Below the pieces are notes generated by a model that did no database searches, was not told the origin of the DNA, and saw nothing but the letters and a program-made list of their open reading frames with translations. Position numbers and translations under genes: made by a program. DNA of 21,872 nucleotides. Source: a virus. The stretch is from the IMG/VR virus record IMGVR_UViG_3300040801_001538, positions 1 through 21,872 of that record; one strand, 5' to 3'. This document shows positions 3,694 through 21,572 of this stretch, one piece after another (position 1 is the stretch's first letter; each line of letters opens with the position of its first letter).

Positions 3694-4092
3694 TTATTCT
3701 ATGATGACATCATATTCACTTATCTCCACTCCAATGTATTTGGAATATTTCGCATTCATTATTTCGGACACTCTATTATTGATGACATGTCCCAATGATA
3801 AATCTTCACCTGAATAAACATCTTTGATTGCCCAAGCCATTGCGAAACTAGTCACATCTTGTTCACCGTAATAGGTATATAGGATTTTATCGATACCAAC
3901 TCTAACAGATACATCACTATCCTCTATGTCTCCTTCTAATATTACGTGACGAAATGTCACAACAGTAAAATCCTCCTCCACTGTAAAATCAGAAGGGTCA
4001 ATAAGATTATTGAGGTCATCAAGGGCCGTGTTGGCTTCATTGATGACCTTCTTTAATCTTCTTAATTGATTCTCTGTAATTTTGATTTTCAC
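3694..4092 (-). CDS. Unknown 132-aa protein with possible cleavable capsid-targeting leader
   Basis: No known domain is recognised. The first 20 residues, MKIKITENQLRRLKKVINEA, form a basic amphipathic helix ending in INE|A (E19|A20), the same tetrapeptide as the predicted maturation site of the capsid protein in this window. The rest is an acidic, mixed alpha/beta domain (VTFRHVILEGDIEDSDVSVR, then a Tyr-rich segment). The T4 internal proteins IPI-III and Alt carry a comparable short leader that directs them into the prohead and is removed by gp21. The gene lies directly upstream of the protease gene. A near-match to the late element (GATAAATA on the plus strand, 4108-4115) lies 15 nt before its start. 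I infer, without proof, an internal head protein. Confidence 0.75.
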   Translation of the reverse strand: MKIKITENQLRRLKKVINEANTALDDLNNLIDPSDFTVEEDFTVVTFRHVILEGDIEDSDVSVRVGIDKILYTYYGEQDVTSFAMAWAIKDVYSGEDLSLGHVINNRVSEIMNAKYSKYIGVEISEYDVIIE

Positions 4093-4102
4093 GAAAAAGG
4101 TT

Positions 4103-4552
4103 TTAAGATAAATATTCCGTCTTTTTCGTTTTAGTCTTAGATAGTGTAAAATACTTTGATGACATTAACTCATCTTGATATATTGATTTACAAATAGTTT
4201 TAACTCTGTCTCTTAAAATTGGTGATTTAAAGTCCATATGTTCTTTTACAAATAAAGTAACTTCTAAGTTCATAAATGACTTCTTACCGACTTGAATACC
4301 ACTGGTTCTCAAATCTAAATCTACTATATTGTGTGTTTCAAATATTAAGGGGTCGACACACTCCAATAGGTTATGTTTAATATTTCTGTTTAGGTTTCCG
4401 TTTATTCTATTCCAATTGTCTGATTCTATGGTTGGTTCAACCCACGACTGTATCGTAATATAGATTGATTTTAATTTATGCGCATCAACCGTACCATAAC
4501 TACATTTAGCATTTTCGAAGATATTCAACTTCGAACTTTTTCCTTTTTTCAT
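4103..4552 (-). CDS. Conserved-looking unknown protein, 149 aa
   Basis: I do not recognise this protein. It begins with a basic segment (MKKGKSSKLNIFENAK) and has an alpha/beta composition with several aromatic and Asn-rich stretches (WVEPTIESDNWNRINGN, then HNIVDLDLRTSGIQ and FMNLEVTLFVKEH), ending in a Lys/Thr-rich tail. There is no signal peptide or membrane segment. It is the first gene downstream of the divergent rpsU promoter region. No clear TATTTATA element precedes it; its leader contains only TATAT-rich sequence. It is separated by 10 nt from the following 132-aa gene, so the two are probably co-transcribed. Coding status is supported by length and fit between neighbours. Confidence 0.75.
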   Translation of the reverse strand: MKKGKSSKLNIFENAKCSYGTVDAHKLKSIYITIQSWVEPTIESDNWNRINGNLNRNIKHNLLECVDPLIFETHNIVDLDLRTSGIQVGKKSFMNLEVTLFVKEHMDFKSPILRDRVKTICKSIYQDELMSSKYFTLSKTKTKKTEYLS

Positions 4553-4636
4553 ATATTTTCATATATCTTATATCGTTTATTGTTGATAAAAGTATAATAA
4601 ACTTTTCACCGTTAGTCAAAAAATGGTATAGTCTTT

Positions 4637-4644
4637 TATATTTA
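4637..4644 (+). promoter_or_regulatory. Putative -7 promoter element for rpsU
   Basis: TATATTTA is one base from the Bacteroidota -7 consensus TAnnTTTG and lies 15 nt before the bS21 start. No convincing TTTG -33 element was found at the usual spacing, so this is weaker than the other plus-strand promoters. Confidence 0.4.
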
Positions 4645-4659
4645 TTATTATAATCAAGT

Positions 4660-4851
4660 ATGTTAATAGTAAAAGTAGACAAAAAAGGTGGTATTGAGAG
4701 AGCTCTCAAAAATTATAAGTACAAGGTCATTAAGACCAAACAACTTAATAATTTGAGGGACGGAAGATACTATGAAAAGCCAACCACTAAAAAAAGAAGA
4801 CAATTAGAAAAAGCCAAATATAATGAAAAAAGAAAGGGTTCAGAATACTGA
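4660..4851 (+). CDS. rpsU: Phage-encoded ribosomal protein bS21
   Basis: A 63-aa, strongly basic protein with the bS21 plan: a short N-terminal beta strand (MLIVKVDKKGGIERALKNYK), a helix, then KPTTKKRRQLEKAKYNEKRK. Length and sequence style match Bacteroidota bS21. It would join the small ribosomal subunit near the 16S rRNA 3' end and affect initiation. Tyr54 is present; from memory, Tyr54 of Flavobacterium johnsoniae bS21 helps occlude the anti-Shine-Dalgarno sequence. There is no Shine-Dalgarno motif before its ATG. It is a lone plus-strand gene among late minus-strand genes, with its own promoter-like element and a strong terminator at its 3' end. Phage bS21 genes are known from other phages, including the pelagiphage HTVC008M. 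The alternative, a generic basic phage protein, is unlikely. Confidence 0.92.
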   Translation: MLIVKVDKKGGIERALKNYKYKVIKTKQLNNLRDGRYYEKPTTKKRRQLEKAKYNEKRKGSEY

Positions 4852-4861
4852 ACCCTTTTTT
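4833..4861 (+). terminator. Strong bidirectional intrinsic terminator
   Basis: Perfect 11-bp stem AAAGGGTTCAG / CTGAACCCTTT with an AATA loop, followed by T residues on the plus strand and by TTTCTTTTTT on the minus strand. The rpsU stop codon lies in the stem. It ends both rpsU and the convergent 244-aa gene (stop at 4864). Confidence 0.9.
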
Positions 4862-4863
4862 AG

Positions 4864-5598
4864 TTATAAACCTTCGTGTAGTTGTCGTAATTTATATAAC
4901 GATACTAAATCGTTTTTACTTTCACTAATCTTTTGAATGGTAATACCAATTTTTTCTTGAAGTTCTTTGTCTTCATTTTCATTGATAGTCCCTTGTAGTT
5001 TAGATACCACAGATTCTTTAAGTGTAGACATTTCTTCTGTGATTTGTTCTTTAGTCATAGAAAGTAATGATTTTAATTCTTCTTTTTCTGACTCAGCAAT
5101 ATTTTCAAACTCTTTGTTAAATGTGTTTGAAGCGATTTTCAACATTGTAGATAATGGGAGATTCACAGACTCTTTAATGATTTCTTCGACTTTTGTCTCA
5201 GTAAGTGTTTTCTCTATCTTTAATTTAGATTCTACTACTTGTTCTAATTTTGTTAAAGATTTCTCATATATAATATTATCAATATCTCTGTAAGTATTCT
5301 CAACAGATTCCTCTAAAAGTGAATCTACCCATTTAGATAATTCTTCAATTTTTTCTTTGTTATTTGTAATGATATCATTCAACTTTTCAAATGATTCATT
5401 TACATACATTGTTGCAACTTCTTTTGTTAGCCCTTTTTGTGAACTTAATTCATCATATAGGAAGTAGGCCTCTGCCAAGTTTTTATCTCCTAATATTCTT
5501 GATTTAAATCCCGACATATTAGTCTTGAAAGTACTCTTTCCATATGAAGAAACTAATGCTCTTTCAATTTTAGATTTTATATCACCAAACTTATTCAT
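4864..5598 (-). CDS. Helical head-cluster protein, 244 aa
   Basis: A mostly alpha-helical, Glu/Lys/Ser-rich protein with no recognised catalytic motif. The N-terminus (MNKFGDIKSKIERALVSSYG) is followed by FKSRILGDKNLAEAYFLYDE and long coiled-coil-like heptads up to the C-terminus (LVSLYKLRQLHEGL). I recall proteins with this N-terminal layout next to the portal gene in other marine T4-like phages, but know of no assigned function. It lies 24 nt downstream of the portal gene, has its own TATTTATA element 13 nt before the ATG, and ends at the bidirectional terminator. A structural, portal- or core-associated role is plausible from position only. Confidence 0.8.
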   Translation of the reverse strand: MNKFGDIKSKIERALVSSYGKSTFKTNMSGFKSRILGDKNLAEAYFLYDELSSQKGLTKEVATMYVNESFEKLNDIITNNKEKIEELSKWVDSLLEESVENTYRDIDNIIYEKSLTKLEQVVESKLKIEKTLTETKVEEIIKESVNLPLSTMLKIASNTFNKEFENIAESEKEELKSLLSMTKEQITEEMSTLKESVVSKLQGTINENEDKELQEKIGITIQKISESKNDLVSLYKLRQLHEGL

Positions 5599-5611
5599 AA
5601 TTGTTTTTATT

Positions 5612-5619
5612 TATAAATA
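5612..5619 (-). promoter_or_regulatory. Putative late promoter element TATTTATA before 244-aa gene
   Basis: Exact coding-strand TATTTATA, 13 nt before the ATG at 5598, in the 24-nt gap after the portal gene. Confidence 0.5.
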
Positions 5620-5622
5620 TCT

Positions 5623-7497
5623 TTATTTGAGTAAGTCGTTTAACTTTTCTTCCATTTCACCCAGTGATGTCCTTCCCTTAGATAAGTCTATGGTTTCATC
5701 TCTACCAAATAAAGTCGTATCTTCTAATATCAAATCCAAATCTTTATTTCTAACGAATGTCTCAGGAGTTATGTCTTCACCACCTGTTTCAACTTCACCT
5801 CCGATGTCTCCACCTAAGTCTCCACCTAAGTCACCACCTAAGTCACCACCGCCGAAGTCACTTCCTCCTCCGCCGAAGTCTCCTCCACCGAAATCATCAC
5901 CACCTTCGTCAGAAGTTTCACCTTCAGGTTGACCACCTTTCTGACCGTATAGTTTATCTAAGTTATCGAATATACCCGTATTAATAATAACCTCTTGAGT
6001 TTTCTCCAATTCACCAGCAACCGCTCTTTCAATACGTTGTTGTTGAAGGTCTAACTTAATTTCCTCATCAGAGAAACCAAGAATGTGTTTCTTAGCCCAC
6101 GATGAAGATACTGGTAAAATACCATTACCTGGGTCAGTTGTTGCATCACGATACAATTGAATCTTCTGTTGCCATTGCTCCACTTTCAACAAGTCTGCTT
6201 GTGATGATGGGTTTGTCAATGCCAATTGGAAGTTTTGTAATTCATCCTCAAATCCTAAAATGTATAAGTGAATGATTGCAATCTTATTCAACTCCTGAAT
6301 CATAGACTTTTGGATTCTATTGATTGTACGAGCAAAACGAATATCTTGTAACGCCAAGTTCTTACCATCACCTGTAACTTCTTCAAAACCTAAGAACGCC
6401 TTTGGTACACGTAACGCAGTTAAAAGTTTCTTTTGGATATATTCAATATCCGCAATCTCTGATAAGTTTTGTGCACCTGGTAAGGTATCAATAGGGTTCG
6501 GAGCATTAGGGTCACGAACAGGAATAAAGTAATCTTGGTCAACAGCCATTTGGTTCATACGTAAGTCTACATTACCCGTTGAAGGGTCTGCAACTTGGTC
6601 ACGTTTGAACTTATTGGCGACTCGTTGTACATACGGTTCGACATCTTTGTCATCCATATTACCTACGAAGACTTTAAATACCCTTCTTTCAGGTGCTCTT
6701 GATGTTCTATAGATTAACATCGCATCTTCAGAAAGAATAAGTTGTTTCCATATTCTTCTGGCTTTCTCCAACATTGAAGTACCATAAGGTAACTTTCTAT
6801 CATCACCCAATAATCTAAAATGTGCAATTTCCCACGTGTTGAACTCCATGTCCTTAACTTTCCATGTGAACTTAAGAACCTCTTCATTACTTTCACCACT
6901 TGGTTGTTGTACACCATATTGACTTGGTGCTGACTTCATACCTCTTTCCAATCTTTCGATTTCAATGTTCGGTAATTGTTGACCACCCATGATACCCTTT
7001 TCAGGGTCCAACTTAAGGTAAACAAAGTTATCACCGTACTTAGCGGTATTTCTTGTCCACATCGGTAAGTTAGTGTCAATGTCTAATCTATTGTTGAATA
7101 AATCTGTCAATACAGATTTGATTCTTTTACTCTCGGAATATACCTGTAAAATGAAACCATCTTCATTTGCAGTTGTAGATTCCTCAGCATAGATATCAAG
7201 AGCCGCAGATATTTCAGGAGTATACTCCATACTCTCGTAATCGTAAAATGCGGCCAATCTTGTTGGTTCGTAATATACGGCTTGAGTATATAGGTTATTT
7301 TCAACCTTTTGCCACTGTTGACCTAAATATAAAGTCTGTTGGGCTTGTAGTTTTTCTCTTTCGTACTCCTGTTTGTCTCTAGTCCTTAATAAATCTTCCT
7401 TATCAAAATTATAAACAGGAGGCTGCTGGTCCAATGTTGAATCGGGACCAAATACTTTGGTTAATCTCTGCCAAACAGTATAGTTATTTTTAGCCAT
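5623..7497 (-). CDS. gp20: Portal vertex protein, T4 gp20 type
   Basis: A 624-aa portal that forms the dodecameric DNA channel at one head vertex and docks the terminase. Recognised segments: RLAAFYDYESMEYTPEISAA and ALDIYAEEST (approximately residues 80-110), WTRNTAKYGDNFVYLKLD, the AHFRLLGDDRKLPYGTSMLE block, YRTSRAPERRVFKV, and the LRVPKAFLGFEE region, all usual for T4-like portals. It is about 100 residues longer than T4 gp20; the extra length is mostly a C-terminal Gly/Asp tail of FGGGD and LGGDLGGD repeats, followed by a short conserved-looking end. It lies 49 nt downstream of terL and has its own late element. Assignment is strong; the role of the Gly/Asp tail is unknown. Confidence 0.93.
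   Translation of the reverse strand: MAKNNYTVWQRLTKVFGPDSTLDQQPPVYNFDKEDLLRTRDKQEYEREKLQAQQTLYLGQQWQKVENNLYTQAVYYEPTRLAAFYDYESMEYTPEISAALDIYAEESTTANEDGFILQVYSESKRIKSVLTDLFNNRLDIDTNLPMWTRNTAKYGDNFVYLKLDPEKGIMGGQQLPNIEIERLERGMKSAPSQYGVQQPSGESNEEVLKFTWKVKDMEFNTWEIAHFRLLGDDRKLPYGTSMLEKARRIWKQLILSEDAMLIYRTSRAPERRVFKVFVGNMDDKDVEPYVQRVANKFKRDQVADPSTGNVDLRMNQMAVDQDYFIPVRDPNAPNPIDTLPGAQNLSEIADIEYIQKKLLTALRVPKAFLGFEEVTGDGKNLALQDIRFARTINRIQKSMIQELNKIAIIHLYILGFEDELQNFQLALTNPSSQADLLKVEQWQQKIQLYRDATTDPGNGILPVSSSWAKKHILGFSDEEIKLDLQQQRIERAVAGELEKTQEVIINTGIFDNLDKLYGQKGGQPEGETSDEGGDDFGGGDFGGGGSDFGGGDLGGDLGGDLGGDIGGEVETGGEDITPETFVRNKDLDLILEDTTLFGRDETIDLSKGRTSLGEMEEKLNDLLK
5803..5905 (-). repeat. Gly/Asp-coding tandem repeat in portal C-terminus
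   Basis: Roughly 12-nt units (CACCTAAGTCTC and variants on the plus strand) encode GGDLGGDLGGD and related FGGGD units. The flexible, acidic, glycine-rich tail is atypical for T4 gp20. Confidence 0.7.
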
Positions 7498-7509
7498 TTC
7501 TTCTTTTTA

Positions 7510-7517
7510 TATAAATA
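7510..7517 (-). promoter_or_regulatory. Putative late promoter element TATTTATA before portal
   Basis: Exact coding-strand TATTTATA in the context ACTATTTATATAAAAAG, 12 nt before the portal ATG. Confidence 0.5.
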
Positions 7518-7546
7518 GTAGTTATATTCTACAATAATTCAATATT

Positions 7547-9322
7547 TTATCTTCTACCCCCGAATAACCATAAATAGTTTTCATAATCACTTTTTGTTGC
7601 ACCACCTCTTCTATGGTTTGCATAAGGGTCATTCGGCATTGCACTTAACGATGGATTGTAGTCATTAACAGGGTTTCTAACTGGTGTTTCATGTACCATC
7701 CAACTATCAACCATCGCTTTGGTTTGTTCGGTTACCTTCTCCAAAGATGAGAATGAGTTCTCACCAACATATATTGCCATAGCCATTGCCATGATAAGGT
7801 CATCGTGTTGTCCTTTTTGGTGGTCAGGTCGACCATTGATATATACAAATGTATTCAACTCATTTAAAAGTCTTGTAGAACGAACCTGATAGTCGTGTCT
7901 TAACGCTTCTTCAAATGCTGCAACAATCTGTACCCTTTTACTGTTAAAGTTAAGACCAGGTATTTTCTCCATCGCCTTAGGGTTGTACTTCCATTTATCA
8001 GCGGCATTTACACCTTCAATATATAAGTTTTGATAACCCAATTCCTGTAATTTTCTCGATGTTGATACACCCATACCACCAGTAATGTCAATCACCACAA
8101 ATGCAGAATACATAGTTGCCCATTTAAATGCGACCTCAGCGGCAACATCAGGTGGTATCTTACCCAAATACTCTAATACCTGTTCTCTTTCATCAAAGTC
8201 AATGATACAGAAGGTAGTGAAATCCTCACTATCACCACGAGAGACATCAATACCCATAATGTACTTATGTCCCTGAATTGGTTCCTTCCATTGCCACAAC
8301 GCACCACCCATAAACTTGTTTTCAGGTTCACGAATGTATCTATCTTTCATCTTCTCAATAGTGTCGTTAGGGATAACATTATCCCCCGAACCTAAGAAGT
8401 TACACTCCAATTCCTGAGCAATCTTACGTCTATCAAACTTAAGTTTCTTAGCCATTGCCTCGAACCAATCAGAATAAGGTTTATACCCATCGTTAAACCT
8501 ATCGTTAATCTCATCAAAATCTCTCAATCTCGGGTCAACCTGAGTATAGTCAATTATTATCTCATCATCGTTATAATCCTCACGATTTAACATATAATGA
8601 ACAATGTCCGTACACTTAATAAGTTTTAGGTTTTTGGCGTAACGAGGGTCTCTATACCAATACATGTCGGTAATCTTGAAATCATTCATCCCTCTTAATG
8701 CTTGGTCGTAGATTGCATAGTAGATAGGGTCAAAACCGTTAGGTGTTGAAATAACAATTACCTTACCACCTGTAGACAACGATGCCATACACGCAGACCA
8801 GAAATCATCATCGGCATCGATAAACGCCGCCTCATCAAATATTAATATAGTAGGGGTATAACCACGTAAGGCATCCTTAGATGTTGCAACAGCCTTGACC
8901 TCACACCCATTGGTTAACTTAAAGTGTCTTTGTGAGTTCTTATCTGCAGAAAACTTAATACCTAACCAAGCCGGCCATTGGTCAACAAAAGCACGTATCT
9001 TATTTGCAAACTCCATAGATGTATCGAGTTTGTTAGCAATGATTAGTATCTTCTCAGGTTTACTCTTTTTTGCAGTAACTAACTTCTTTGATGCCCAAGC
9101 GGCAGTTACCGTTGATACACCCGCCTGTCTATATTTAATTGCAATATTTTCCTCGAAGTTATCGTAATCAGAAATTAACCTGTCTTGGTCGGGAAAAAGT
9201 TCTAGTGGGACGTAACGAGATTGTGTGTTGTCGTATGTTTGTAGGTATGTCTTTAGTGCATATGAAGTATCTTTCACAATCTTTGCGTACTCGACCAATA
9301 CCTGTTCTCTCGTTAAAGCCAT
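7547..9322 (-). CDS. terL: Terminase large subunit, T4 gp17 type
   Basis: A 591-aa DNA-packaging motor with an N-terminal ATPase and a C-terminal RNase H-like nuclease. ATPase: KYRQAGVST (63-71) at the Walker A position, Walker B TILIFDEAAF with Asp163 and Glu164, and coupling motif VISTPNG (190-196). Nuclease: GIDVSRGDSEDF (Asp359), FVVIDITGG (Asp412) and HDDLIMAMAM (Asp507/508), the expected three acidic sites. Length is close to T4 gp17 (610 aa). The Walker A lacks the usual GK(S/T) lysine; Lys63 at the start of the motif matches the deviant lambda gpA pattern instead. The ATG at 9322 lies 21 nt after the preceding gene's stop. No small terminase is evident in the window. Confidence 0.94.
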   Translation of the reverse strand: MALTREQVLVEYAKIVKDTSYALKTYLQTYDNTQSRYVPLELFPDQDRLISDYDNFEENIAIKYRQAGVSTVTAAWASKKLVTAKKSKPEKILIIANKLDTSMEFANKIRAFVDQWPAWLGIKFSADKNSQRHFKLTNGCEVKAVATSKDALRGYTPTILIFDEAAFIDADDDFWSACMASLSTGGKVIVISTPNGFDPIYYAIYDQALRGMNDFKITDMYWYRDPRYAKNLKLIKCTDIVHYMLNREDYNDDEIIIDYTQVDPRLRDFDEINDRFNDGYKPYSDWFEAMAKKLKFDRRKIAQELECNFLGSGDNVIPNDTIEKMKDRYIREPENKFMGGALWQWKEPIQGHKYIMGIDVSRGDSEDFTTFCIIDFDEREQVLEYLGKIPPDVAAEVAFKWATMYSAFVVIDITGGMGVSTSRKLQELGYQNLYIEGVNAADKWKYNPKAMEKIPGLNFNSKRVQIVAAFEEALRHDYQVRSTRLLNELNTFVYINGRPDHQKGQHDDLIMAMAMAIYVGENSFSSLEKVTEQTKAMVDSWMVHETPVRNPVNDYNPSLSAMPNDPYANHRRGGATKSDYENYLWLFGGRR

Positions 9323-9343
9323 AATCCATAACTTAGATTTTTA

Positions 9344-10630
9344 TTATGATAAATCAATTCCCAAATCACCTAAGAAATCTCTGAACTCATCGTTATCCTC
9401 ATCATCTTCCTCAGAACCACCTAACGCATCTTCTAAGTCATATTGACGTAATTCCTCAACAATCTCATCAACCATTCTCTTAACGATTGCCTGACCTTTC
9501 TCAGTTTCACCCAAGATTTCTCTTGCAACCTCAAAGAACTCTTCAGTTGATAATGCTGAGAAACGTGAGAATAAATAGTTCTGAATCTCTCTCATATCAT
9601 CCTCAAATAAATCTTCAGGATATGATGCCATAAACTTTTCCCAAATGACAGGTCCTAAACGTAAGTCCCAAATCTCATATGGTAAGGTATCTTGTGAACC
9701 CATAACCATCTCAGCCGCCTTAGGGTCATCAGGTAAACCTTGTGTACCTAACACCTCATAAACACCTTTAATTAACTCGTGAATCAATACAGGAAAGAAT
9801 ATACCTTTAGCCTTAATTGTAGGTGGGTCAGTAGTGTCGTCAACTTCTTCAGAACCCTGAACACCTTCACCTTCACCTGCCATCATTTGAGTCATCTCAT
9901 CAGGTACAATCCAGTACATTAAATCTGCAATAGACATCAATACACCATAAAGATTTAATAGTTGTGGGTTTAAACGGTCTAACTCGTCAGCAACTAAGTT
10001 AAACATGTAATGACCTTTCTTAGATGCACCTTGAATAAGTGAATTAATGAAACGACGTTTTGCCTTTTCCATATCAAACTTATCCATCGCATCCATAAAT
10101 GCTTCGATGTCATCTTCCATATCTTCAGCGTTTTCATCACCGAAGGCTTTCATGATTTCTTCCTCATCAGGTTCCTCATCAGAAGAACCTCTCATTTTAG
10201 AAGTATCAATTTGTCCCATACCTGATAACAATTCAACATCAAATTGGAATGCTTCGTCAGGTAATGACATTTCTTTCTTTACTAAGTCTACCGATAAGTT
10301 TTCAAGATACTCAGTATTCTCGTTCTCAATCGCTTTAACCTGTTGTACTGCACGTTGTAACATCATCTGTAACTCCATGAAGGCATTAGGTCCTGAGATG
10401 TCAGTAAGACCTGTATATTGTTTTACCTTATCTACAACATCACCAAATCTTTTAGATGCTAACAATTCTTCAAATGAAGATACTACCCCATCGCCATCAA
10501 AATCAATATCCAATGCTGGATTATCTGATAGTGGAGTCTCACGGTCCTGAATCTTTGATTGGATATCAGGTGCCATTCTTTCAGGTCTGTCACCGTAATT
10601 AATCGGTGCTTCGTTAATTTTTTTGCTCAT
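9344..10630 (-). CDS. Acidic 428-aa protein with an EF-hand-like loop
   Basis: Function is not recognised. The protein starts MSKKINE|APINYGD, with the INE|A tetrapeptide also found at the predicted capsid cleavage site. Residues 43-54 (DFDGDGVVSSFE) have the exact 12-residue EF-hand loop pattern: Asp at 1, 3 and 5, Gly at 6, Glu at 12. This suggests one calcium site. The centre is helical and acidic (EEPDEEEIMKAFGD, AEDMEDDIEAFMDAMDKFDM), followed by a hydrophobic helix-rich core (LNLYGVLMSIADLMYWIVPDE, FFPVLIHELIKGVYEVLG) and a very acidic C-terminus. Its start overlaps the upstream gene by 17 nt, implying translational coupling. It immediately precedes terL. A virion or prohead component is likely from context only. 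Confidence 0.8.
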   Translation of the reverse strand: MSKKINEAPINYGDRPERMAPDIQSKIQDRETPLSDNPALDIDFDGDGVVSSFEELLASKRFGDVVDKVKQYTGLTDISGPNAFMELQMMLQRAVQQVKAIENENTEYLENLSVDLVKKEMSLPDEAFQFDVELLSGMGQIDTSKMRGSSDEEPDEEEIMKAFGDENAEDMEDDIEAFMDAMDKFDMEKAKRRFINSLIQGASKKGHYMFNLVADELDRLNPQLLNLYGVLMSIADLMYWIVPDEMTQMMAGEGEGVQGSEEVDDTTDPPTIKAKGIFFPVLIHELIKGVYEVLGTQGLPDDPKAAEMVMGSQDTLPYEIWDLRLGPVIWEKFMASYPEDLFEDDMREIQNYLFSRFSALSTEEFFEVAREILGETEKGQAIVKRMVDEIVEELRQYDLEDALGGSEEDDEDNDEFRDFLGDLGIDLS

Positions 10631-11462
10631 CTCTAAATTGTATATTTAAGGTGTTAAACTTCAAAAACTCAGGTAATCCTTTCTTACCTGCTTTCGGTGC
10701 TGGTTTGTGTTTTGGTTGGTATGGAGTTTTTCTTCCTGGTTTTTCTTTCGTACCAGGTTTAACTCTTGAAGGTGCAGTTGTCGTATCACCCGCCTTTGGA
10801 GCCGGTTTATGTTTCGGCTTATAAGGTGTCTTTCTTTCGGGTTTAGTCCTCGTAGGTGTCTTAACAGGTGCTTCCTTCGTACCAGGTATCTGTTCTAATA
10901 AATCTTTCTTACTCATTGTCATTGGTACGTATTTCTTCACCAAAGATACAATAGATTCTTCGATTTGTCTAATTTCGTTCTGTTTTTTGACATCTCTTAC
11001 ACATCTTTCAAACTTAGCCGATTCAGATTTACTGTAAGAATCTCTTTCACGACCTTCTAAACCTAAAGACGATGTACAGATAGCCCAAGGATTAACCTCT
11101 TCTACTTCACCCATCATTTGACGGTTATTATCAGAATCATCATCCATACCATCAGGTGCCATGTCTTTTTCATCATGTGGACCTTCTTGACCAGTGTAAT
11201 CTTGACGAGCTAAATCTTCTAACCCATCTTCATTCTCTTCCTCACCAATCTTTTGAATGGTTTGGTCAATCGCCTGATTTAATTGTGATAATTCCGCTTT
11301 CATTTGTTGAACATCATCAACTTTATCAGTTAAACTCTCTTGTTCACCAATTACGGCAGTATATAAGGTATCTATCTGAGTTTCGTTTAACATCTTTAAT
11401 GTTTCGAACTTTATACCTTTATTCAGTAAACTTGCAACTTTCTTATTATCCATGACTTGCAA
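10614..11462 (-). CDS. Unknown 282-aa protein with duplicated Lys/Pro-rich tail motif
   Basis: The N-terminal part (1-120) is helical and acidic (QQMKAELSQLNQAIDQTIQK). A central segment, NPWAICTSSLGL then KSESAKFERCVRDVKKQN, has two cysteines and resembles a short motif I have seen in other marine T4-like phage proteins without a named function. The C-terminal 80 residues are basic and carry two copies of an 18-residue unit (RKTPYKPKHKPAPKAG and RKTPYQPKHKPAPKAG), separated by a Thr/Lys/Pro linker. The gene overlaps its upstream neighbour by 17 nt and its downstream neighbour by 17 nt. An in-frame ATG at 11453 is an alternative start. The basic tail could bind DNA or an acidic partner, which is inference. 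Confidence 0.78.
   Translation of the reverse strand: MQVMDNKKVASLLNKGIKFETLKMLNETQIDTLYTAVIGEQESLTDKVDDVQQMKAELSQLNQAIDQTIQKIGEEENEDGLEDLARQDYTGQEGPHDEKDMAPDGMDDDSDNNRQMMGEVEEVNPWAICTSSLGLEGRERDSYSKSESAKFERCVRDVKKQNEIRQIEESIVSLVKKYVPMTMSKKDLLEQIPGTKEAPVKTPTRTKPERKTPYKPKHKPAPKAGDTTTAPSRVKPGTKEKPGRKTPYQPKHKPAPKAGKKGLPEFLKFNTLNIQFRDEQKN
10690..10850 (-). repeat. Two diverged coding copies of a KTPYxPKHKPAPKAG unit
   Basis: The two copies, near 10690-10740 and 10791-10845, are nearly identical as protein but clearly diverged at synonymous positions. This indicates an old duplication kept by selection rather than recent slippage. Confidence 0.7.
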
Positions 11463-13298: not shown

Positions 13299-14048
13299 TT
13301 ATAAACTTATTTCTTGTTCCAAAGATAACCTCTTATCGACCAACTCATTTGTAAAATCGAAAAGTTTCTGTATGTAACCGTTACGTCTTAAAAACTTAAA
13401 GACTAAGTTCTCATAGGAGTACTCACCTTCTTTTTCTAATCCACAACTTCTATATTTTTTTAATCTGTCTTTAACTTTGTCAATCAACTCTACCGCATCT
13501 TCGAGTTTCTCATCTGATGCATTTTCAATAACAACATCGATAATATCCATCCATTGATTCGCCTTTTCCTGTAACATATTTTCATCGATGGTAACCTCTT
13601 CTTTTGACGGTTCGTTAATCCACTCATCAAACATTACGGAATATACACCTGTAGAGTGATGAGGTTCTGAGGAGTCTTGTACATATAATTCCGCCTCGTA
13701 ACCTTTAACCTTAATGTCGTGTGTTGAATTAAAAAGTGTTTTCTTTAATTTGAATAATTCTTTGTATAACTCTTTTGATTGACCAGCCTCGGTAAAGTCA
13801 TACATAATGTGTAAGTCAATGTCTGAGAACTCAGACCAGTTGTAATTGGCTAATGACCCTGTCATTGTGATATCTGAAATAAAAATATCAACACCTAAAA
13901 AATCGATAAACTCATTTGAAATTGCAAGTAGAGATTCACGAATCACGTTCTTCATACGATACGAACCATTATCGGTTTCGTCCCATATCTGTGGGTTTAA
14001 CTCGTCCTGAATATTAAAACTAGAAATAATTCTATCTACTTGGTCCAT
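13299..14048 (-). CDS. Pol-beta-fold nucleotidyltransferase
   Basis: A 249-aa protein with the nucleotidyltransferase signature MTGSLANYNWSEFSDIDLHI: Gly64-Ser65, then Asp76-x-Asp78 for metal binding. A third acidic residue is probably Glu118, Glu120 or Asp125 in KGYEAELYVQD. The C-terminal half is helical (NQWMDIIDVVIENASDEKLE, then DRLKKYRSCGLEKEGEYSYE). Members of this superfamily transfer NMP to RNA, protein, antibiotics or nucleotides; the sequence does not tell which. Related genes occur in T4-like phages as unassigned nucleotidyltransferases. The TATTTATA element ends only 4 nt before this ATG, so a transcript from it would be leaderless or start at a later codon. Enzyme class is confident, substrate unknown. 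Confidence 0.85.
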   Translation of the reverse strand: MDQVDRIISSFNIQDELNPQIWDETDNGSYRMKNVIRESLLAISNEFIDFLGVDIFISDITMTGSLANYNWSEFSDIDLHIMYDFTEAGQSKELYKELFKLKKTLFNSTHDIKVKGYEAELYVQDSSEPHHSTGVYSVMFDEWINEPSKEEVTIDENMLQEKANQWMDIIDVVIENASDEKLEDAVELIDKVKDRLKKYRSCGLEKEGEYSYENLVFKFLRRNGYIQKLFDFTNELVDKRLSLEQEISL

Positions 14049-14060: not shown

Positions 14061-14070
14061 GAGTAAACTT

Positions 14071-14319: not shown

Positions 14320-14320
14320 A

Positions 14321-14623: not shown

Positions 14624-14628
14624 AAATA

Positions 14629-14654
14629 TAAAAAAACCCCGATTTCTCGAGGTT
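14629..14654 (-). terminator. Intrinsic terminator after the UVR-motif gene
   Basis: On the minus strand, stem AACCTCGA / TCGGGGTT (8 bp, one G-U) with a GAAA tetraloop is followed by a T run. It starts 7 nt after the UVR gene stop and makes that gene a single-gene transcript. Confidence 0.85.
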
Positions 14655-14660
14655 TTCTAA

Positions 14661-15014
14661 TTAAGATTGTAATTTTTTTATTTCATCCCTTAGTTCAATG
14701 GCCCTTTCGAAGTCTTGTTTGTCGATAGCCTTTTGAAGTTTGGTTTGAAGATTACTTATCTTTTCACCGTTTTCCTCGATAGATTTAATCTTATCTCTTA
14801 ACTCAACAGCCTTTTCAAAGTCCTGTGATTCAACAGCATCTTGAAGCTCAGATTTTAATTTGATGGTCTCATCAACGGACTCACCCATAGAGTTATTAGA
14901 GTAGGTGAAAACATACCCATTAGGCCCAACCTTATAATACACAGGTTGAACATCATCGAATAAAGATTCTAAATCCTTAAACATTTGGTCAAAAATACTT
15001 TTTCTGTAAAACAT
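14661..15014 (-). CDS. UVR-motif protein (two UvrB/UvrC-type motifs), possible Clp partner
   Basis: A 117-aa protein whose C-terminal half holds two UVR helical-hairpin motifs: DFEKAVELRDKIK (65-77) and DFERAIELRDEIK (101-113), each preceded by a Lys/Leu/Gln helix. The N-terminal 45 residues (MFYRKSIFDQMFKDLESLFD, then YYKVGPNGYVFTYSN) match nothing I know and contain no zinc-binding cysteines, unlike McsA. UVR motifs mediate protein contacts in UvrB, UvrC, McsA and the middle domain of ClpC. The gene is divergent from the phage clpC gene, whose middle domain carries the same motif ([13 protein letters not shown]), so a partner or regulator of that ATPase is an attractive inference. It has its own terminator. 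A role in DNA repair is the main alternative. Confidence 0.85.
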   Translation of the reverse strand: MFYRKSIFDQMFKDLESLFDDVQPVYYKVGPNGYVFTYSNNSMGESVDETIKLKSELQDAVESQDFEKAVELRDKIKSIEENGEKISNLQTKLQKAIDKQDFERAIELRDEIKKLQS

Positions 15015-15037
15015 AATATTAGTTTAATTTATTTTAT

Positions 15038-15045
15038 TATCTTTG
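15038..15045 (+). promoter_or_regulatory. Possible distal -7 element upstream of clpC
   Basis: TATCTTTG fits TAnnTTTG, 155 nt before the clpC ATG. No TTTG -33 element is seen at the normal distance, so this is weak. Confidence 0.25.
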
Positions 15046-15090
15046 TGTCTTTAAGAGAAAAATGTGCCAAAACTAAAAATCTAACATAAA

Positions 15091-15127
15091 ACTGTCATTC
15101 TGTCAGTTTTACAAAAAAATACTGACA
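15091..15127. promoter_or_regulatory. Operator-like repeats upstream of clpC
   Basis: An inverted repeat TGTCAGT (15101-15107) / ACTGACA (15121-15127) with a 13-nt A/T spacer is preceded by another ACTGTCA (15091-15097), so TGTCA half-sites recur three times. They lie 38-74 nt before the clpC -7 element, in the divergent region shared with the UVR gene. This could be a binding site for a host or phage regulator or an RNA hairpin. Inference only. Confidence 0.35.
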
Positions 15128-15145
15128 ATTTCAGTTAAGATGTAG

Positions 15146-15172
15146 TTTGTATCAGATTTTGTCTTATATTTG
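15146..15172 (+). promoter_or_regulatory. Bacteroidota-type promoter for clpC
   Basis: TATATTTG (15165-15172) is a perfect TAnnTTTG -7 element, 27 nt before the start codon. TTTG at 15146-15149 could be the -33 element, but the spacing of 15 nt is short. Confidence 0.6.
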
Positions 15173-15199
15173 TAGAGTCTAAAAGAAAAATAGAAAATT

Positions 15200-17218
15200 A
15201 TGATTGAATCAGTAGACCCGAACGATAGTTCAAAAGGGAAAAAAGAAAGAGGACCAAAATCGGGAACACCTGTATTGGATAACTTCTCACGTGACTTGAT
15301 TGGATTGGCTGAACAGGGTAAGTTAGACCCCGTTGTCGGTCGTGACCGTGAGATTGACCGAATCGCTCAGATTCTTTCCCGTAGAAAGAAGAATAACCCC
15401 ATCATCATTGGTGAACCTGGTTGTGGTAAAACTGCAATCATTGAAGGATTGGCAATGAAGATTTACGAAGGTGACTGTCCTCGTAACCTATGTGACAAAC
15501 GTATCGTATCATTAGATATGACATCAATCGTTGCAGGTACAAAGTATCGTGGTCAGTTTGAGGAACGTCTAAAGGTAATCTTAGACGAGTTACACGACAA
15601 CCCTGATATCATTGTGTTTATCGATGAGATTCACACAATCATTGGGGCTGGTAACTCATCAGGTTCATTAGACGCATCCAACATCTTTAAACCCGCACTT
15701 GCACGTGGTGAACTCCAATGTGTAGGGGCAACAACTCTCGATGAATATCGTGAGAATATTGAAAAAGACGGAGCATTGGAACGTCGTTTTCAAAAGGTAA
15801 TGGTTGATGGTGCATCACCTGAGGAGACAATGGTGATTTTACAGAACCTAAAGTCTCGTTATGAGAAACACCACAAAGTAACGTACACTGACGAATCATT
15901 GGAAGGGTGTGTCTACTTGGCTGACCGTTACATTACCGACCGTGCATTCCCTGATAAAGCCATCGACATTATGGATGAGGTGGGTGCTCGTAGTCAGATT
16001 TCTGTCAAACTACCTGAGGAGATTGAAAAACTCAAAGAGGAAGCTAACAAAATCAAACAGGAGAAAATCAACGTGGTCAAGGCTCAGGATTATGAGAAGG
16101 CTGCACATCTTCGTGACAAAGAGAAGAAAGTTCTTAAGAAATTGGAAAATGTTAAGGCCGACTTCGAAGCGAAACAAGATGAGGAACGCAGACCTATTAC
16201 TGAAGATATGGTATATGAGGTAGTAGCAAATATGACTAAGATTCCTGTTTCTAAACTCAATCAAAATGAGATGGAAGGTTTGTTAGACCTCGAAGGTAAC
16301 CTCAACGAGGCAGTAATCGGACAAGAAAATGCGGTGAAGAAGATTTCCAAAGCAATCCGTAGAAACCGTGTGGGTATCAAGGACCCTAACCGTCCAATCG
16401 GTTCGTTTATCTTCCTTGGTTCCACAGGTGTCGGTAAAACCCACTTGGCCAAACAATTGGCAAAACAAATCTTCGGAGATGAAGAAGCTCTCATCCGTGT
16501 GGATATGAGTGAGTACCAAGAGAAGTACACCATGTCGCGTCTCATCGGTTCTCCTCCAGGATATGTGGGTCACCAAGAAGGTGGTCAACTCACTGAGAAA
16601 GTAAAAAACAAACCTTACTCTGTAGTATTGTTTGATGAGATTGAAAAGGCTAACAAAGACATCTTCTCTCTCCTTTTACAAGTATTGGATGACGGTCACC
16701 TTACAGATAGTTTCGGTCGTAAAATCAACTTCAAAAACTGTTTGATTATTATGACTTCTAACTTGGGAGTTAAGAAACTACAAGACTTCGGAGCGGGTGT
16801 TGGTTTCGACACAACATCAAGAATTAGTGGTGATGAAGATTTGAAGAAAGCACTTCTTCAGAAAGAACTAAAGAACCACTTTACTCCTGAGTTCTTGAAC
16901 CGTTTGGATGAGGTTATTGTATTCAACCCTCTAAAACAAACTGAGGTTCGTCAGATTGTTGAGATTGAACTGAGTAAACTAACGAAACGTTTGGAAAGAC
17001 TCGGTTACCATATCAACTTTACCGATGAAGTGAAGACTATGTTAGCGGATGTTGGGTTCGACGAACAATACGGAGCAAGACCTATCAAACGAGCAATCCA
17101 AGAGAAAATCGAGGATTACATATCTGAAGAAGTACTACGTCAGAACATCAAAATCGGACGTAATTACGAACTCAAATATGACAACGAAGAAGTTCTAATT
17201 GAGGAAGGGGTGAAATAA
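15200..17218 (+). CDS. clpC: ClpC-type AAA+ unfoldase lacking the N-domain
   Basis: A 672-aa double-ring Clp/Hsp100 ATPase that would unfold proteins for ClpP or act alone. D1: Walker A GEPGCGKT (71-78), pore loop KYRGQ (115-119), Walker [10 protein letters not shown] (137-145). Middle domain with a UVR motif (297-309), typical of ClpC rather than ClpA or ClpB. D2: Walker A GSTGVGKT (407-414), pore loop GYVG (454-457), Walker [10 protein letters not shown] (475-483), and a VGF tripeptide (534-536) at the position of the ClpP-docking loop. Cellular ClpC has some 140-150 more N-terminal residues forming the substrate/adaptor Clp-N domain. Here the protein begins MIESVDPND and stops upstream rule out a longer start. 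The host-like promoter suggests early or middle expression. No clpP is in the window. The divergent neighbour encodes UVR motifs. Confidence 0.93.
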
Positions 17219-17227
17219 TCCCCTTCC
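17203..17227 (+). other. Hairpin spanning the clpC stop codon
   Basis: A perfect 8-bp stem, GGAAGGGG (17203-17210) / CCCCTTCC (17220-17227), carries the TAA stop in its 9-nt loop. There is no T run, so it is not a canonical intrinsic terminator. It may protect the mRNA 3' end or slow read-through into the peptidase promoter. Confidence 0.5.
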
Positions 17228-17230
17228 CTA

Positions 17231-17261
17231 TTGGAAGTTAACTAAATAGTTATTATATTTG
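17231..17261 (+). promoter_or_regulatory. Bacteroidota-type promoter for the metallopeptidase
   Basis: TTG at 17231-17233, 20-nt spacer, then TATATTTG at 17254-17261, 16 nt before the ATG. This matches the Bacteroidota -33/-7 consensus well. Confidence 0.75.
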
Positions 17262-17277
17262 TATCAAATTAAAAGAA

Positions 17278-18351
17278 ATGGACAATAAAAGTATTGCAAG
17301 ATTTAAGGAACTACTCTCAGTACCTTCAAAGACATATCAAGAAGACCAAATGGTGGAATACATCTCATGGGTCTTAGATAGTATTGATGGAGTCGAGTAC
17401 TACACTGACGAGATGAATAACATCTACGCGACCAAACGTCAAGATGGATTCTACGGGAAGTTCCCAATGTTTGTTGCACATACTGACACAGTCCATTCAA
17501 TTGTCCCCGAAATCGTTGTTAAGGAACAAACACTTCCCAAACCATCGACATTTGGACGTACATTCGATGAAACTCAGTTTGACGTCCTTAAAGCTTACAC
17601 TCCTGACGGTACCCCAACAGGTATTGGTGGTGATGATAAGTGTGGTATCTTCATTTGTTTGGAACTTCTCCGTACACTGTCCAATGTTAAAGTTGGGTTA
17701 TTTGTATCTGAGGAAACTGGATGTATTGGTTCCAGCAAATGTGATGTTAAGTTCCTTAACGATGTCGGGTACATCATTCAATACGACGCACCTGGTAACC
17801 ATCTAATTACCGAGGTTTGCTCGGGAGTTCGCCTGTTTGAAGAAAACGGGGGATTCATCAAAAGAGCACTTCCTGTAATTGAGAGAACCATGGAAACGGA
17901 CATGGATTTACAATCACACCCTTATACTGATGTTTCTCAGTTAAAGAAGAAAAGTGATGTTTCCTGTATTAACATTTCCTGTGGGTATTACGAGATGCAC
18001 TCACCAAATGAGTTCATCGTGTTAGATGATGTTGAAAAGGCCATCAGAACAGGTATCAACTTAGTTAATGAGTTTGGTTACGAAAAACAGGAATACGCCT
18101 ACGAACCACCCAATCTAATCTATAGTGGGTTTATTGACATCCAAAATGTTGATGATGATTGGGACGATACCTTGTTGGATGGTTTAGAAAATGAAACCTT
18201 TGAATTGTCGGACAACACCGTCGAACTTGAGTTTGGTGGTGTAACCATCCAAAGTCACCACACCGGTGATACCGTCTACATGGATGAAGACGACGTGATT
18301 AAACTTTACGAAATTATTCGTGAGAACTTCTTATTCAAAGGGGTCGAATAA
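17278..18351 (+). CDS. Zinc metallopeptidase of the M20/M28 (clan MH) type
   Basis: A 357-aa protein with all five ligand positions of di-zinc MH-clan peptidases: MFVAHTDTVH (His69, Asp71), TGIGGDDKCG (Asp119 or Asp120), FVSEETGCIG (catalytic Glu145, Glu146), IIQYDAPGN (Asp170) and YEMHSPNEF (His241). The spacing and SPNEF motif resemble peptidase T-like enzymes. Only about 70 residues separate Asp170 from His241, so the dimerisation/lid domain of M20 enzymes is reduced or missing. The C-terminal 85 residues (from about 272) form an extra acidic segment I do not recognise. Likely activity is aminopeptidase or tripeptidase action on short peptides in the cytoplasm; no signal peptide is present. 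It lies downstream of clpC with its own promoter and a terminator, and its last 21 nt overlap the convergent gene. Confidence 0.88.
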   Translation: MDNKSIARFKELLSVPSKTYQEDQMVEYISWVLDSIDGVEYYTDEMNNIYATKRQDGFYGKFPMFVAHTDTVHSIVPEIVVKEQTLPKPSTFGRTFDETQFDVLKAYTPDGTPTGIGGDDKCGIFICLELLRTLSNVKVGLFVSEETGCIGSSKCDVKFLNDVGYIIQYDAPGNHLITEVCSGVRLFEENGGFIKRALPVIERTMETDMDLQSHPYTDVSQLKKKSDVSCINISCGYYEMHSPNEFIVLDDVEKAIRTGINLVNEFGYEKQEYAYEPPNLIYSGFIDIQNVDDDWDDTLLDGLENETFELSDNTVELEFGGVTIQSHHTGDTVYMDEDDVIKLYEIIRENFLFKGVE

Positions 18352-20175
18352 CTGATAGTTATTCATCAAAGAACGAAGGGTTGAGAGCTTTGCTCTCACC
18401 TTTTTCGTTTCGAACTTATCAGTTTCACCATTAAATCTTTTTAATGTAAAATCCACCTTATTCGTTTCAGGGTGAACACCTGATATGTTTACAAATGTAC
18501 CCTCTTGAGAAGGTACTGGTATGTTTTGATTTAATTTAAACTCTTTCTCTAACTCTTTATTAATTTTTAAGTATTCATCAACATCTAAGAAGAAGTCACT
18601 GTCTTTTAACTTATCGTAATAACTACTTAATACGGATTCCGTTGGGTCGTTAAAGTTTTCATTAAATGTTTCATCGTCCTCACTATCATATGCAAGTTCA
18701 TAAACATACATGTAAGGGAAACTTACATTATTTGACACATAATCTTCCAACATTGATTTTAGGTCGAGGTCTTTGAAATACTCATTACTCTCGTATATAT
18801 TAACCAGTTCACTCAGGTCGATACTATATTTGTAGAAACATTCACCTTCTTTCTCGATACCTATTTCACTCAGAATGTTACAAAGTTCGTTTTGAAATCT
18901 TTTTCTTAAACCAACCTCAATGGATTCATTTTTGGCAATTGAAAACTCATAACCTAAGTCCTCGATGAAACTACTTTCCAAATTATCGGTAATAAACTTA
19001 CCTATGGTTGAGTAATCATCTCGGTCTATATCAAAACCGTCCTCACCTTTTTTAATTAATGATGCAACTTCAGGGTTATACACCTGAATAATATCTTTTA
19101 ATATCTCTAAGTGTTCGTCATTCAAATTATAAAGATAATACCCTTCACTTAAATCTTCATCAAAGTTATATGTGTCATAATAATTAGCGTCATATCCGTA
19201 TGGTGGGTCAATTGCGTTGGCAATGAAACTAATATCACTCTCTTCAATCTCTTCGTTAAATAATGAAAGAAACTTTTCAGGACCGTCAAAATTGAGGACC
19301 ACTTCGTAACCATCGTCACTTTTTCTGACCTTATCAAAGATTTCACTCTGTACCTTAACACGACTAGGTTCAATCTCACCGTTGTTTAACTTACTAAGTA
19401 GTTCATAGTGATTTTGACCTTGTATTAAACCTTTAATCTTATCTTTTATAGGGTCAAAACGGTCTAACAATACGTCTACGGACCTTAAACTATCCTGTTG
19501 GTCATATACCTCAGTCCTACCATTTGGTCTAACCAGTAGTGCCATTTTACCGAATATGTTATTACTACTCTTCTTATCGATGATGTAATATAAAGAACCC
19601 TCTTTAGTGTACGTATCAAAGTATCTGGTATCATCTTTAGAAGTTGTACACCATTTTGTATTTTGACCATAGTAACACGAGGCTCCGTGAGATAACGGTT
19701 CCACAATTAAGAATCGGTCGTCTTCATAAATCTTTACAGATTCATTTTTGACTTCTTTTTCTTTTTCCTTTTGTTCCTTTCTTTTACTAATTGCCGAAAG
19801 TACGGCTTGTAACGCCCAAATAGAATCATACTTGTTAATGTCCTTAGGTGCAGTTCTAAGTTTGTCGGCCTTTACCAATGATGACATTGACGCAGCGTCA
19901 TCAATATCTTCAGGTGTAATTGATGATGCACTCTTGTGAAACTTCTCAATGAGTTCAATAAATAAGTTGACGTTATCCGCCAGTGAATACGTTATAGGGT
20001 CACCCAAACCTATCATCTGTTTCACCATCCACTCAGAATACTTCTTTGTAGATGAAGGGTCACCTTCGATAAGTTTCTCTAATAACTCAGGAGAATCCGC
20101 AAAGGTAGGGGTGTCTTTATATTTATCTATAAGACGTTCCTTTTTTCCCTCAAGTAGTATTGTCATGAACTTCAT
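18331..20175 (-). CDS. Unknown 614-aa phage protein with YYGQNTKWCTTS motif
   Basis: The N-terminus MKFMTILLEGKKERLIDKYK begins many unassigned proteins of T4-like marine phages as I recall them, and ILLE|G fits gp21-type cleavage at residue 9. Residues 60-130 are helical. A distinct domain follows (about 148-245): VKIYEDDRFLIVEPLSHGAS, then YYGQNTKWCTTSKDD (Cys167 and Cys176 within a GxxTKWC motif), YTKEGSLYYIIDKK and KMALLVRPNGRTEVYDQQD. The rest is acidic, with repeated short Asp/Glu/Tyr stretches, ending in a small beta domain (LFDPFE). I know no function for this family. The conserved Cys/Trp core suggests a ligand-binding or catalytic pocket. A late element lies 14 nt upstream, so it is probably a late gene. 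Confidence 0.85.
   Translation of the reverse strand: MKFMTILLEGKKERLIDKYKDTPTFADSPELLEKLIEGDPSSTKKYSEWMVKQMIGLGDPITYSLADNVNLFIELIEKFHKSASSITPEDIDDAASMSSLVKADKLRTAPKDINKYDSIWALQAVLSAISKRKEQKEKEKEVKNESVKIYEDDRFLIVEPLSHGASCYYGQNTKWCTTSKDDTRYFDTYTKEGSLYYIIDKKSSNNIFGKMALLVRPNGRTEVYDQQDSLRSVDVLLDRFDPIKDKIKGLIQGQNHYELLSKLNNGEIEPSRVKVQSEIFDKVRKSDDGYEVVLNFDGPEKFLSLFNEEIEESDISFIANAIDPPYGYDANYYDTYNFDEDLSEGYYLYNLNDEHLEILKDIIQVYNPEVASLIKKGEDGFDIDRDDYSTIGKFITDNLESSFIEDLGYEFSIAKNESIEVGLRKRFQNELCNILSEIGIEKEGECFYKYSIDLSELVNIYESNEYFKDLDLKSMLEDYVSNNVSFPYMYVYELAYDSEDDETFNENFNDPTESVLSSYYDKLKDSDFFLDVDEYLKINKELEKEFKLNQNIPVPSQEGTFVNISGVHPETNKVDFTLKRFNGETDKFETKKVRAKLSTLRSLMNNYQLFDPFE
18379..18405 (+). terminator. 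Intrinsic terminator for the peptidase, inside the convergent gene
   Basis: Stem TGAGAGC / GCTCTCA (7 bp, extendable by GG/CC) with a TTT loop, then a run of five T (18401-18405), 30 nt past the peptidase stop. It lies antisense within the 3' coding end of the 614-aa gene. Confidence 0.7.
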
Positions 20176-20189
20176 TTAAAAACTTTTAC

Positions 20190-20197
20190 TATAAATA
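20190..20197 (-). promoter_or_regulatory. Putative late promoter element TATTTATA before 614-aa gene
   Basis: Exact coding-strand TATTTATA in the context GTATTTATAGTAAAAG, 14 nt before the ATG at 20175. Confidence 0.55.
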
Positions 20198-20205
20198 CTT
20201 GATAG

Positions 20206-20237
20206 TTTGGATAATTGATTAATAACCCTTATATTTG
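20206..20237 (+). promoter_or_regulatory. Bacteroidota-type promoter for the CAP-domain gene
   Basis: TTTG (20206-20209), 20-nt spacer, TATATTTG (20230-20237), 19 nt before the ATG. This is the closest match in the window to the Bacteroidota consensus, so it is probably read by the unmodified host RNA polymerase. Confidence 0.8.
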
Positions 20238-20256
20238 AAGTATAAATAAACAATAT

Positions 20257-20706
20257 ATGAAAAAACTACTTTTATTACTACTGTTACTATCAACTACTGC
20301 ATTCTCTCAGACAATGACCGATGAGGAGATACTTAGGGGGCAAGAAAATCAGTTCATAGAATTATTGAATGTTGAAAGAACCAAAAAAGGACTCAGAACC
20401 TTAGTATTCAATCAAGGTCTATATGATACAGTTTCAACTCGACAAGCCAATAACATGGCAATCAATGATAGTTTATACCACAAACCTGATGATGTGAATA
20501 ACCATTGTGGTGAGGTGGCAGCAGGTCCATTTATGACAATCAACACACGACTGGCCACAAGGTCAATAAACTTATTCAAAGACTCATCAACCTCACATTG
20601 GGGTTGTCTTATGAGTAGTTCTTCAACCATTGTTTCGGTTAGGATGGAATCATTTACCGACGAAAATGGTTGGTCAGGGATGTACATATGTGTGAACTAT
20701 ATGTAA
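20257..20706 (+). CDS. Secreted CAP/SCP-domain protein
   Basis: A 149-aa protein with an N-terminal Sec signal peptide (MKKLLLLLLLLSTTAFSQ), cleavage probably after AFS as is usual in Flavobacteriia. The remainder fits a short CAP (SCP/PR-1) domain: FIELLNVERTKKGLRTLVFN, then ANNMAINDSLYHK (His75), HCGEVAAG (Glu86), and DSSTSHWGCLMS (His114), followed by the closing strands TIVSVRMESF and MYICVNYM. His75, Glu86 and His114 correspond to the conserved His/Glu/His cavity residues of the superfamily. It would be exported to the host periplasm. The molecular role is unknown; bacterial CAP proteins have been linked to cell-wall and surface processes. It has a strong host-type promoter. The family call is good though the domain is compact. 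Confidence 0.85.
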   Translation: MKKLLLLLLLLSTTAFSQTMTDEEILRGQENQFIELLNVERTKKGLRTLVFNQGLYDTVSTRQANNMAINDSLYHKPDDVNNHCGEVAAGPFMTINTRLATRSINLFKDSSTSHWGCLMSSSSTIVSVRMESFTDENGWSGMYICVNYM

Positions 20707-20732
20707 AAACCTATTTAATTATTTCTCAAAGT

Positions 20733-21572
20733 TTAAGCCAACTCCTGACCCTGATTATTTTCGGGAAATCTTAACCTTTCTTTTTTAACCTTATCTACCA
20801 GTTGATTAAATACGTCTTCACTATCTACGGTTACGTAATTTTTTTTATCGTATTTTACAGTGTCACACATAGAGTTATTCTTATTACAAACCTGTGATAG
20901 TTTCAGTCTACTTTTTCTAAAGTTGTCAAACTCAGGTATTCTACTAAACTGAGATAGTAATCCTCTTTGAGTCTCATTATTTTTATCGAATACGAAGACA
21001 CTACCATCCACAAATCCAACAAATGTTTTATCACCTGAGGCATTTTGACCATACATAGGTTTCGGAACTATTAAAACACTCGGTATTTTACCTGGATTTT
21101 TCATCTGAACCGATAAATCGACAAACTGTTCTTTTTTATAATCAGCATGGTTCTTCCCTTTAGATGGTTCCCATTTAACCTTTGGAGGTACAATTGTTGT
21201 TTCTCCAAACATTACATTGGGAAACTTTCTATTGATGTATTTTTGTACTTCTTCGGCTCTTGCTTTTGCCAATGAACCTTTTTCCTCAAATCCTTTTGGG
21301 TTAGGAACATTAGACTCACCGGCAGTTATCTTTAATAATACACTACCCTCACCGTACTTAGATATGAAATCACCAATACTTTTTACCGTATTATTCAAAT
21401 CATTAGTGTTTTGTAATTTGTATTCACCACTATCAAATAAATTACCTAAATTGAATCTTGATTCACTAGGTTTAGTGACCTTACCTCTTTGTTCATATCT
21501 TTGTTCAGACAGTACCTTATATACCATCTTCTTAATATCGGCCTCCGTTAAACGAATTACTTTATTTCCCAT
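20733..21572 (-). CDS. OmpA-like-domain protein with a phage-type N-terminal leader
   Basis: The frame is open further upstream, but ATG 21572 is preferred: it lies 18 nt after an exact late element and gives MGNKVIRLTEADIKKMVYKV, a leader type common in marine T4-like phage proteins. This yields 279 aa. Residues 43-158 resemble an OmpA C-terminal peptidoglycan-binding domain: LFDSGEYKL, LNNTVKSIGDFISKYGEGS, LLKITAGESN (place of GxTD), SLAKARAEEVQKYI (Arg105) and a late VDLSVQM strand. The similarity is by pattern only and is moderate. The C-terminal 110 residues are unassigned, with two cysteines (SQVCNKNNSMCD). The leader offers LTE|A (residue 10) and LSE|Q (residue 23) as possible protease sites. 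No Sec signal peptide is seen. Confidence 0.75.
   Translation of the reverse strand: MGNKVIRLTEADIKKMVYKVLSEQRYEQRGKVTKPSESRFNLGNLFDSGEYKLQNTNDLNNTVKSIGDFISKYGEGSVLLKITAGESNVPNPKGFEEKGSLAKARAEEVQKYINRKFPNVMFGETTIVPPKVKWEPSKGKNHADYKKEQFVDLSVQMKNPGKIPSVLIVPKPMYGQNASGDKTFVGFVDGSVFVFDKNNETQRGLLSQFSRIPEFDNFRKSRLKLSQVCNKNNSMCDTVKYDKKNYVTVDSEDVFNQLVDKVKKERLRFPENNQGQELA

Follow-up and report, generated by a model that had tools for sequence, protein, structure and literature searches.

In phage T4, the internal proteins IPI-III and Alt carry a short N-terminal capsid-targeting propeptide (CTS) with a site for the S77-type protease gp21 (PMC9026906, PMC3012670), and the internal proteins turned out to inhibit Type IV restriction specifically (PMC12373910). 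Head propeptides, often longer ones, are also removed by an S77-type protease in giant phages of the phiKZ/SPN3US type (PMC9026906, PMC10052503). The N-terminal leaders described here share with the T4 CTS that a short N-terminal propeptide is placed on otherwise unrelated proteins and ends in a predicted prohead protease site. They differ in number and diversity: whereas the T4 CTS measures ~10-19 residues and occurs on few proteins, we found several unrelated leader classes, with ~5-15 carriers of one class (class A) per genome by a strict profile and as many as ~25 when a loose pattern is used. P1' is mostly Q here, and the cargo includes proteins that bind peptidoglycan. To our knowledge, Q at P1' is no part of the T4 cleavage rule. 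The leaders and the T4 CTS are too short for a meaningful sequence comparison, and we describe a likeness with no claim of homology. In phiKZ and SPN3US, many head proteins, among them inner-body and ejection proteins, likewise have N-terminal propeptides cut after Glu by a distant gp21 homologue (gp175 and gp245, respectively). However, the phiKZ site is S/A-x-E, and many SPN3US propeptides are long (up to 254 aa), whereas the leaders reported here are short and recurrent. Our literature search returned the T4 and giant-phage precedents and no report of these leaders; queries with the motif letters gave nothing, and for phiKZ and SPN3US we found no description of leaders that are shared and interchangeable. 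The 'conserved N-terminal motif' of RaK2 (PMC3622015) was considered as the same leader and rejected, as it is a tail-spike baseplate-binding region.

The window, that is the whole stretch of DNA analyzed here, comprises 21.9 kb from a T4-like phage and encodes on its minus strand a gp23-like capsid protein, an S77 prohead protease, a portal and TerL. A first-pass annotation had singled out three proteins of 132, 614 and 279 aa as bearers of a common basic leader with an (L/I)xE|(A/G)-like site, and had compared this leader with those of the T4 internal proteins and Alt. All three were located as claimed, on the minus strand. The relevant features are listed below, with a bar marking the predicted cleavage position.

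2-1054, minus strand: major capsid protein, gp23-like, N-terminal part, running off the window
875-1054, minus strand: capsid propeptide, residues 1-60, ending LINE|A (predicted maturation site)
2936-3655, minus strand: S77 prohead protease (T4 gp21 type; PF03420, E=1.7e-23; phrog_207 head maturation protease, E=3e-43)
3667-3679, minus strand: late-promoter-like element before the protease gene, 13/13 match to TATTTATAATAAA
3694-4092, minus strand: 132-aa protein with GTG start and leader MKIKITENQLRRLKKVINE|A, between portal and protease
4036-4092, minus strand: leader of the 132-aa protein, 19 aa, site VINE|A
4102-4114, minus strand: late-promoter-like element before the 132-aa gene, 11/13
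9344-10630, minus strand: TerL-adjacent head-module protein, 428 aa, start MSKKINE|A (leader 10610-10630)
10614-11453, minus strand: head-module protein, 279 codons, N-terminal segment ending VIGE|Q at residue 37
18331-20175, minus strand: 614-aa protein with a conserved YGxxTxWCT domain (~145-230; PHROG 17056 / 28193)
20149-20175, minus strand: short leader-like start of the 614-aa protein, MKFMTILLE|G, 9 residues
20185-20197, minus strand: late-promoter-like element before the 614-aa gene, 12/13
20733-21572, minus strand: 279-aa protein, leader and probable OmpA-like domain (~residues 45-130)
21504-21572, minus strand: leader of the 279-aa protein, 23 aa, MGNKVIRLTEADIKKMVYKVLSE|Q
21586-21598, minus strand: late-promoter-like element before the 279-aa gene, 13/13

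Elsewhere in the window, and judged from the sequence only, a 117-aa protein with two UVR-like motifs (14661-15014, minus strand) adjoins a divergent ClpC/A-like ATPase and a peptidase-like protein (15200-17218 and 17278-18351, both plus strand). A nucleotidyltransferase-like GSLANYNWSEFSDIDLH motif was recognized by eye in a 249-aa protein (13299-14048, minus strand).

The 132-aa and 279-aa proteins start with the same motif, I/L-T-E-x-D/Q-L/I...V-I/L-x-E|Q/A, and an alignment of their leaders with 11 other N-termini showed E10 and E23 to be invariant (numbering of the first row; 13 residues apart). Two orthologues of the 132-aa protein keep both the GTG start and the leader, there with VISE|G. 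We take T4 genes 67 and 68, encoding the prohead core proteins gp67/gp68, to occupy the interval between portal and protease, as the 132-aa gene does here. A prohead-core protein is more likely than cargo in this case, the likeness to gp67/gp68 being one of gene position. The 279-aa protein had five matching relatives, four of which matched solely over the first 25-27 residues (67-73% identity), and a related-locus search queried with the whole protein retrieved no relative. The 279-aa protein is probably OmpA-like: its match to PF00691 (E=0.066) is below the curated cut-off, and its model, which is of low confidence (pLDDT 42), gave Foldseek E values of 0.003-0.1, mostly to OmpA/MotB/Pal-type domains. 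It is the best cargo candidate in the window.

A leader common to all three proteins was found only in part, because the start of the 614-aa protein, MKFMTILLE|G, is shorter and different, and its assignment to class A was rejected. An [ILV]xE end is common to all three proteins, including the 614-aa protein; in class A the next residue is mostly Q. In 10 homologues of the 614-aa protein K2, F3, L7, E9 and G10 are invariant, and conservation continues beyond the putative cut. The structure model (pLDDT 85.6) places residues 1-10 (pLDDT 66) inside a predicted helix formed by residues 2-19; since this helix spans the putative cut, the predicted structure argues neither for nor against cleavage there. 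Comparison of the model with PDB structures (Foldseek, VIA-align) gave weak matches from which no fold could be named, and searching PDB sequences with a profile returned nothing. As to an ADP-ribosyltransferase domain like that of T4 Alt, there was no Pfam match and no strong PDB fold match. In another phage, the Y-G-x-x-T-x-W-C-T domain was found behind an unrelated leader of class D (see below), and the 614-aa protein is probably cargo. Several proteins of these phages that bear different tags contain this domain (phrog_17056 / phrog_28193).

Beyond the window, the class A leader is real and modular. An unanchored DNA pattern, in which the final E was fixed, yielded at least 90 matches in IMG/VR, and 88 of the 90 listed were located within 8 codons of an ATG and before unrelated sequences. 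The fuller consensus is I-R/K-L-T-E-S-D-L-x(6)-V-I-x-E|Q. As the final E was set by the pattern, the site is tested only by the residue that follows and by the other leader classes; this residue was Q in 52 of the 89 matches listed, compared to a background of 4.7%. A leader HMM found no carrier among 872 proteins in control loci and none among 209 proteins in immuto. The first-pass annotation had proposed to count the leader across relatives, and in three genomes (297-326 kb) the strict HMM identified 5, 10 and 15 proteins with the leader at the N-terminus; a loose pattern found up to ~25 per genome. When all proteins of a 297-kb relative were compared against each other, the highest-ranking pairs of similar N-termini followed by unrelated sequence were those with the class A leader. 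Furthermore, a looser helix-plus-site pattern was enriched 2.9- to 4.6-fold at N-termini in the three genomes, compared to 1.9-fold in controls. These counts bear out the recurrence of a leader on otherwise unrelated proteins. A few class A copies occur at internal or C-terminal positions in longer reading frames (L218, L197, and the G001 gene at 62021-63040). A scan of genome contigs gave only 10 matches, about six of them leader-like, which indicates that the leader is chiefly viral. No match to the consensus 23-mer was obtained by tblastn against named phages; no isolate of the leader-bearing clade was found, and the nearest named capsid relatives are 29-45% identical.

Class A is not the only leader of this kind. 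Class D, with the unrelated consensus I-T-E-E-E-K-x-R-I-L-x-M-H...L-x-E|Q, was N-terminal in all 39 unique proteins that contained it, and phi-x-E-Q followed it in 24 of these 39, compared to 4 of 291 control windows (Fisher 2e-22). Shorter forms also occur, e.g. MKKIIKKILRE|E and MKFxxLLLE|G. The leaders end in [ILV]xE|Q/A/S, which resembles the capsid propeptide end LINE|A. In one case, two different leaders precede a mature protein that is 98% identical, and the breakpoint lies at RVIKE|Q; in another a peptidoglycan-binding protein (73% identical) was found behind either leader A or leader D. At least two unrelated long leaders and shorter forms appear to do the same job and are swapped between cargo genes.

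The same site recurs in the head module. LINE|A aligns with FLTE|A of T4 gp23, and L[IL]NE|A/S ends the capsid propeptide in 20 of 20 leader-bearing phages read, which together represent one related clade. In the TerL-adjacent protein, [ILVM]xE precedes a conserved (P)[IV]xY...PERM in 25 of 25 distinct N-termini behind a leader of ~3-30 aa; nine of these were missed by a narrow regular expression, owing to an intervening proline, and were scored by eye. Most relatives of the 279-codon head-module protein have [ILV]xE|Q/A at the equivalent position. Among 32 large leader-bearing contigs, 22 encode an S77 protease, and the same 22 contain gp23 and a TerL recognized by PF03237; gp23 was found on one further contig, where it is partial. 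Conditional on a recognized terminase, 22 of 22 leader contigs therefore encode the protease. The 10 contigs that lack S77 also lack a TerL recognizable by the PF03237 profile or by the TerL of the window, and the head module is probably missing from these fragments. The raw frequency of S77 (22 of 32 leader contigs versus 9 of 22 chance-pattern control contigs; Fisher p=0.054) is only weakly different. An element resembling TATTTATAATAAA lies 22-26 nt upstream of the three window genes, in agreement with the earlier claim of a late element or near-match before each of them, and the protease gene has one as well. Overall, the TATTTAT core was more common before leader genes (16/30 versus 173/1090), although this did not hold for every genome taken by itself (G017, p=0.18).

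Taken together, the leaders are best explained as capsid-targeting propeptides that are removed by the S77 prohead protease, similar to the T4 CTS and more numerous and diverse. On the grounds of sequence and analogy, we consider this reading to be about 70% probable. The T4 analogy drawn in the first-pass annotation is supported by the presence of an S77 protease gene in the window, by leader ends that match the predicted capsid maturation site, by the leader swaps and by the late-like element. The short, interchangeable tags on unrelated proteins would serve as a label for loading into the virus head. The S77 protease, with that of the window as the proposed leader peptidase, would cut them after the conserved Glu in [ILV]xE|Q/A/S, the cargo would be encapsidated, and some of it may be ejected into the host. 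More tentatively, interchangeable head-loading tags could pack ~15-25 proteins, including cell-wall-binding ones, with cargo exchanged by recombination at the protease site and the delivered set evolving as a module.

The leaders might alternatively remain uncleaved and act as a docking helix, which binds a common virion or host partner such as the scaffold, the tail or RNA polymerase, with the Glu in the binding face. Such a helix would suit the basic character (mean net charge +2.5) and amphipathic look of the leaders, and in class A a T-E close to the start is no less invariant than the final Glu. However, this explanation is unlikely given that unrelated leaders reach the same end, that this end matches the capsid maturation site, and that the TerL-adjacent protein keeps the site even where its leader is reduced to 3-7 residues. 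It is still less probable that the carriers are cell-wall or lysis proteins of the ordinary kind, as the PHROG 'endolysin' labels would suggest, and that the leader functions in export or localization instead of head packaging. Peptidoglycan-binding domains (PG_binding_1, LysM) do predominate among the recognized cargo domains, and an OmpA-like domain is probable in the 279-aa protein. However, the leaders are charged throughout with no hydrophobic core as in a Sec signal, the site is also present in head-module proteins, and Pfam shows no wall domain in more than 80% of the class A carriers. Most carriers have no recognized domain. Finally, the shared 5' ends could reflect DNA-level recombination or a translation-start cassette that has no function in the protein, in line with the sharp breakpoints of the leader swaps. 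We regard this as very improbable, because synonymous codons vary freely at the invariant residues, which indicates selection on the peptide.

The further proposal that these proteins are host-takeover effectors did not find support, as the recognized cargo is mostly peptidoglycan-binding, the 132-aa gene is at the gp67/gp68 position, and neither an ADP-ribosyltransferase nor a defence-system family turned up in the carriers. PADLOC detected nothing in 84 class A carriers. A role in host takeover is one possibility for some of the cargo, and we draw no such conclusion for the three named proteins. Small lysine-rich proteins, in which the leader is followed by a K-rich stretch (e.g. MKIIKLTEGDLVEMIQQVISEKKKK...TLCSRGK), resemble basic internal proteins; they were located in the L117-L131 relatives (G002, G003, G006) and in G001 at 206549-206800.

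T4-type CTS are already known, and the best reading of our data is that uncultured T4-like giant phages have more numerous and diverse leader classes of this type. That the tags end at the expected head-protease site suggests a head-loading label and, with it, a way to predict the proteins carried into the host. If this is true, the leaders would be a sequence-only predictor of the proteins carried in the head by uncultured giant phages, and would help to approach what many orphan proteins do, such as anti-defence, wall passage or takeover. Considering that T4 internal proteins inhibit Type IV restriction (PMC12373910), genomes encoding 10-25 tagged proteins would have much to offer in the search for injected functions.
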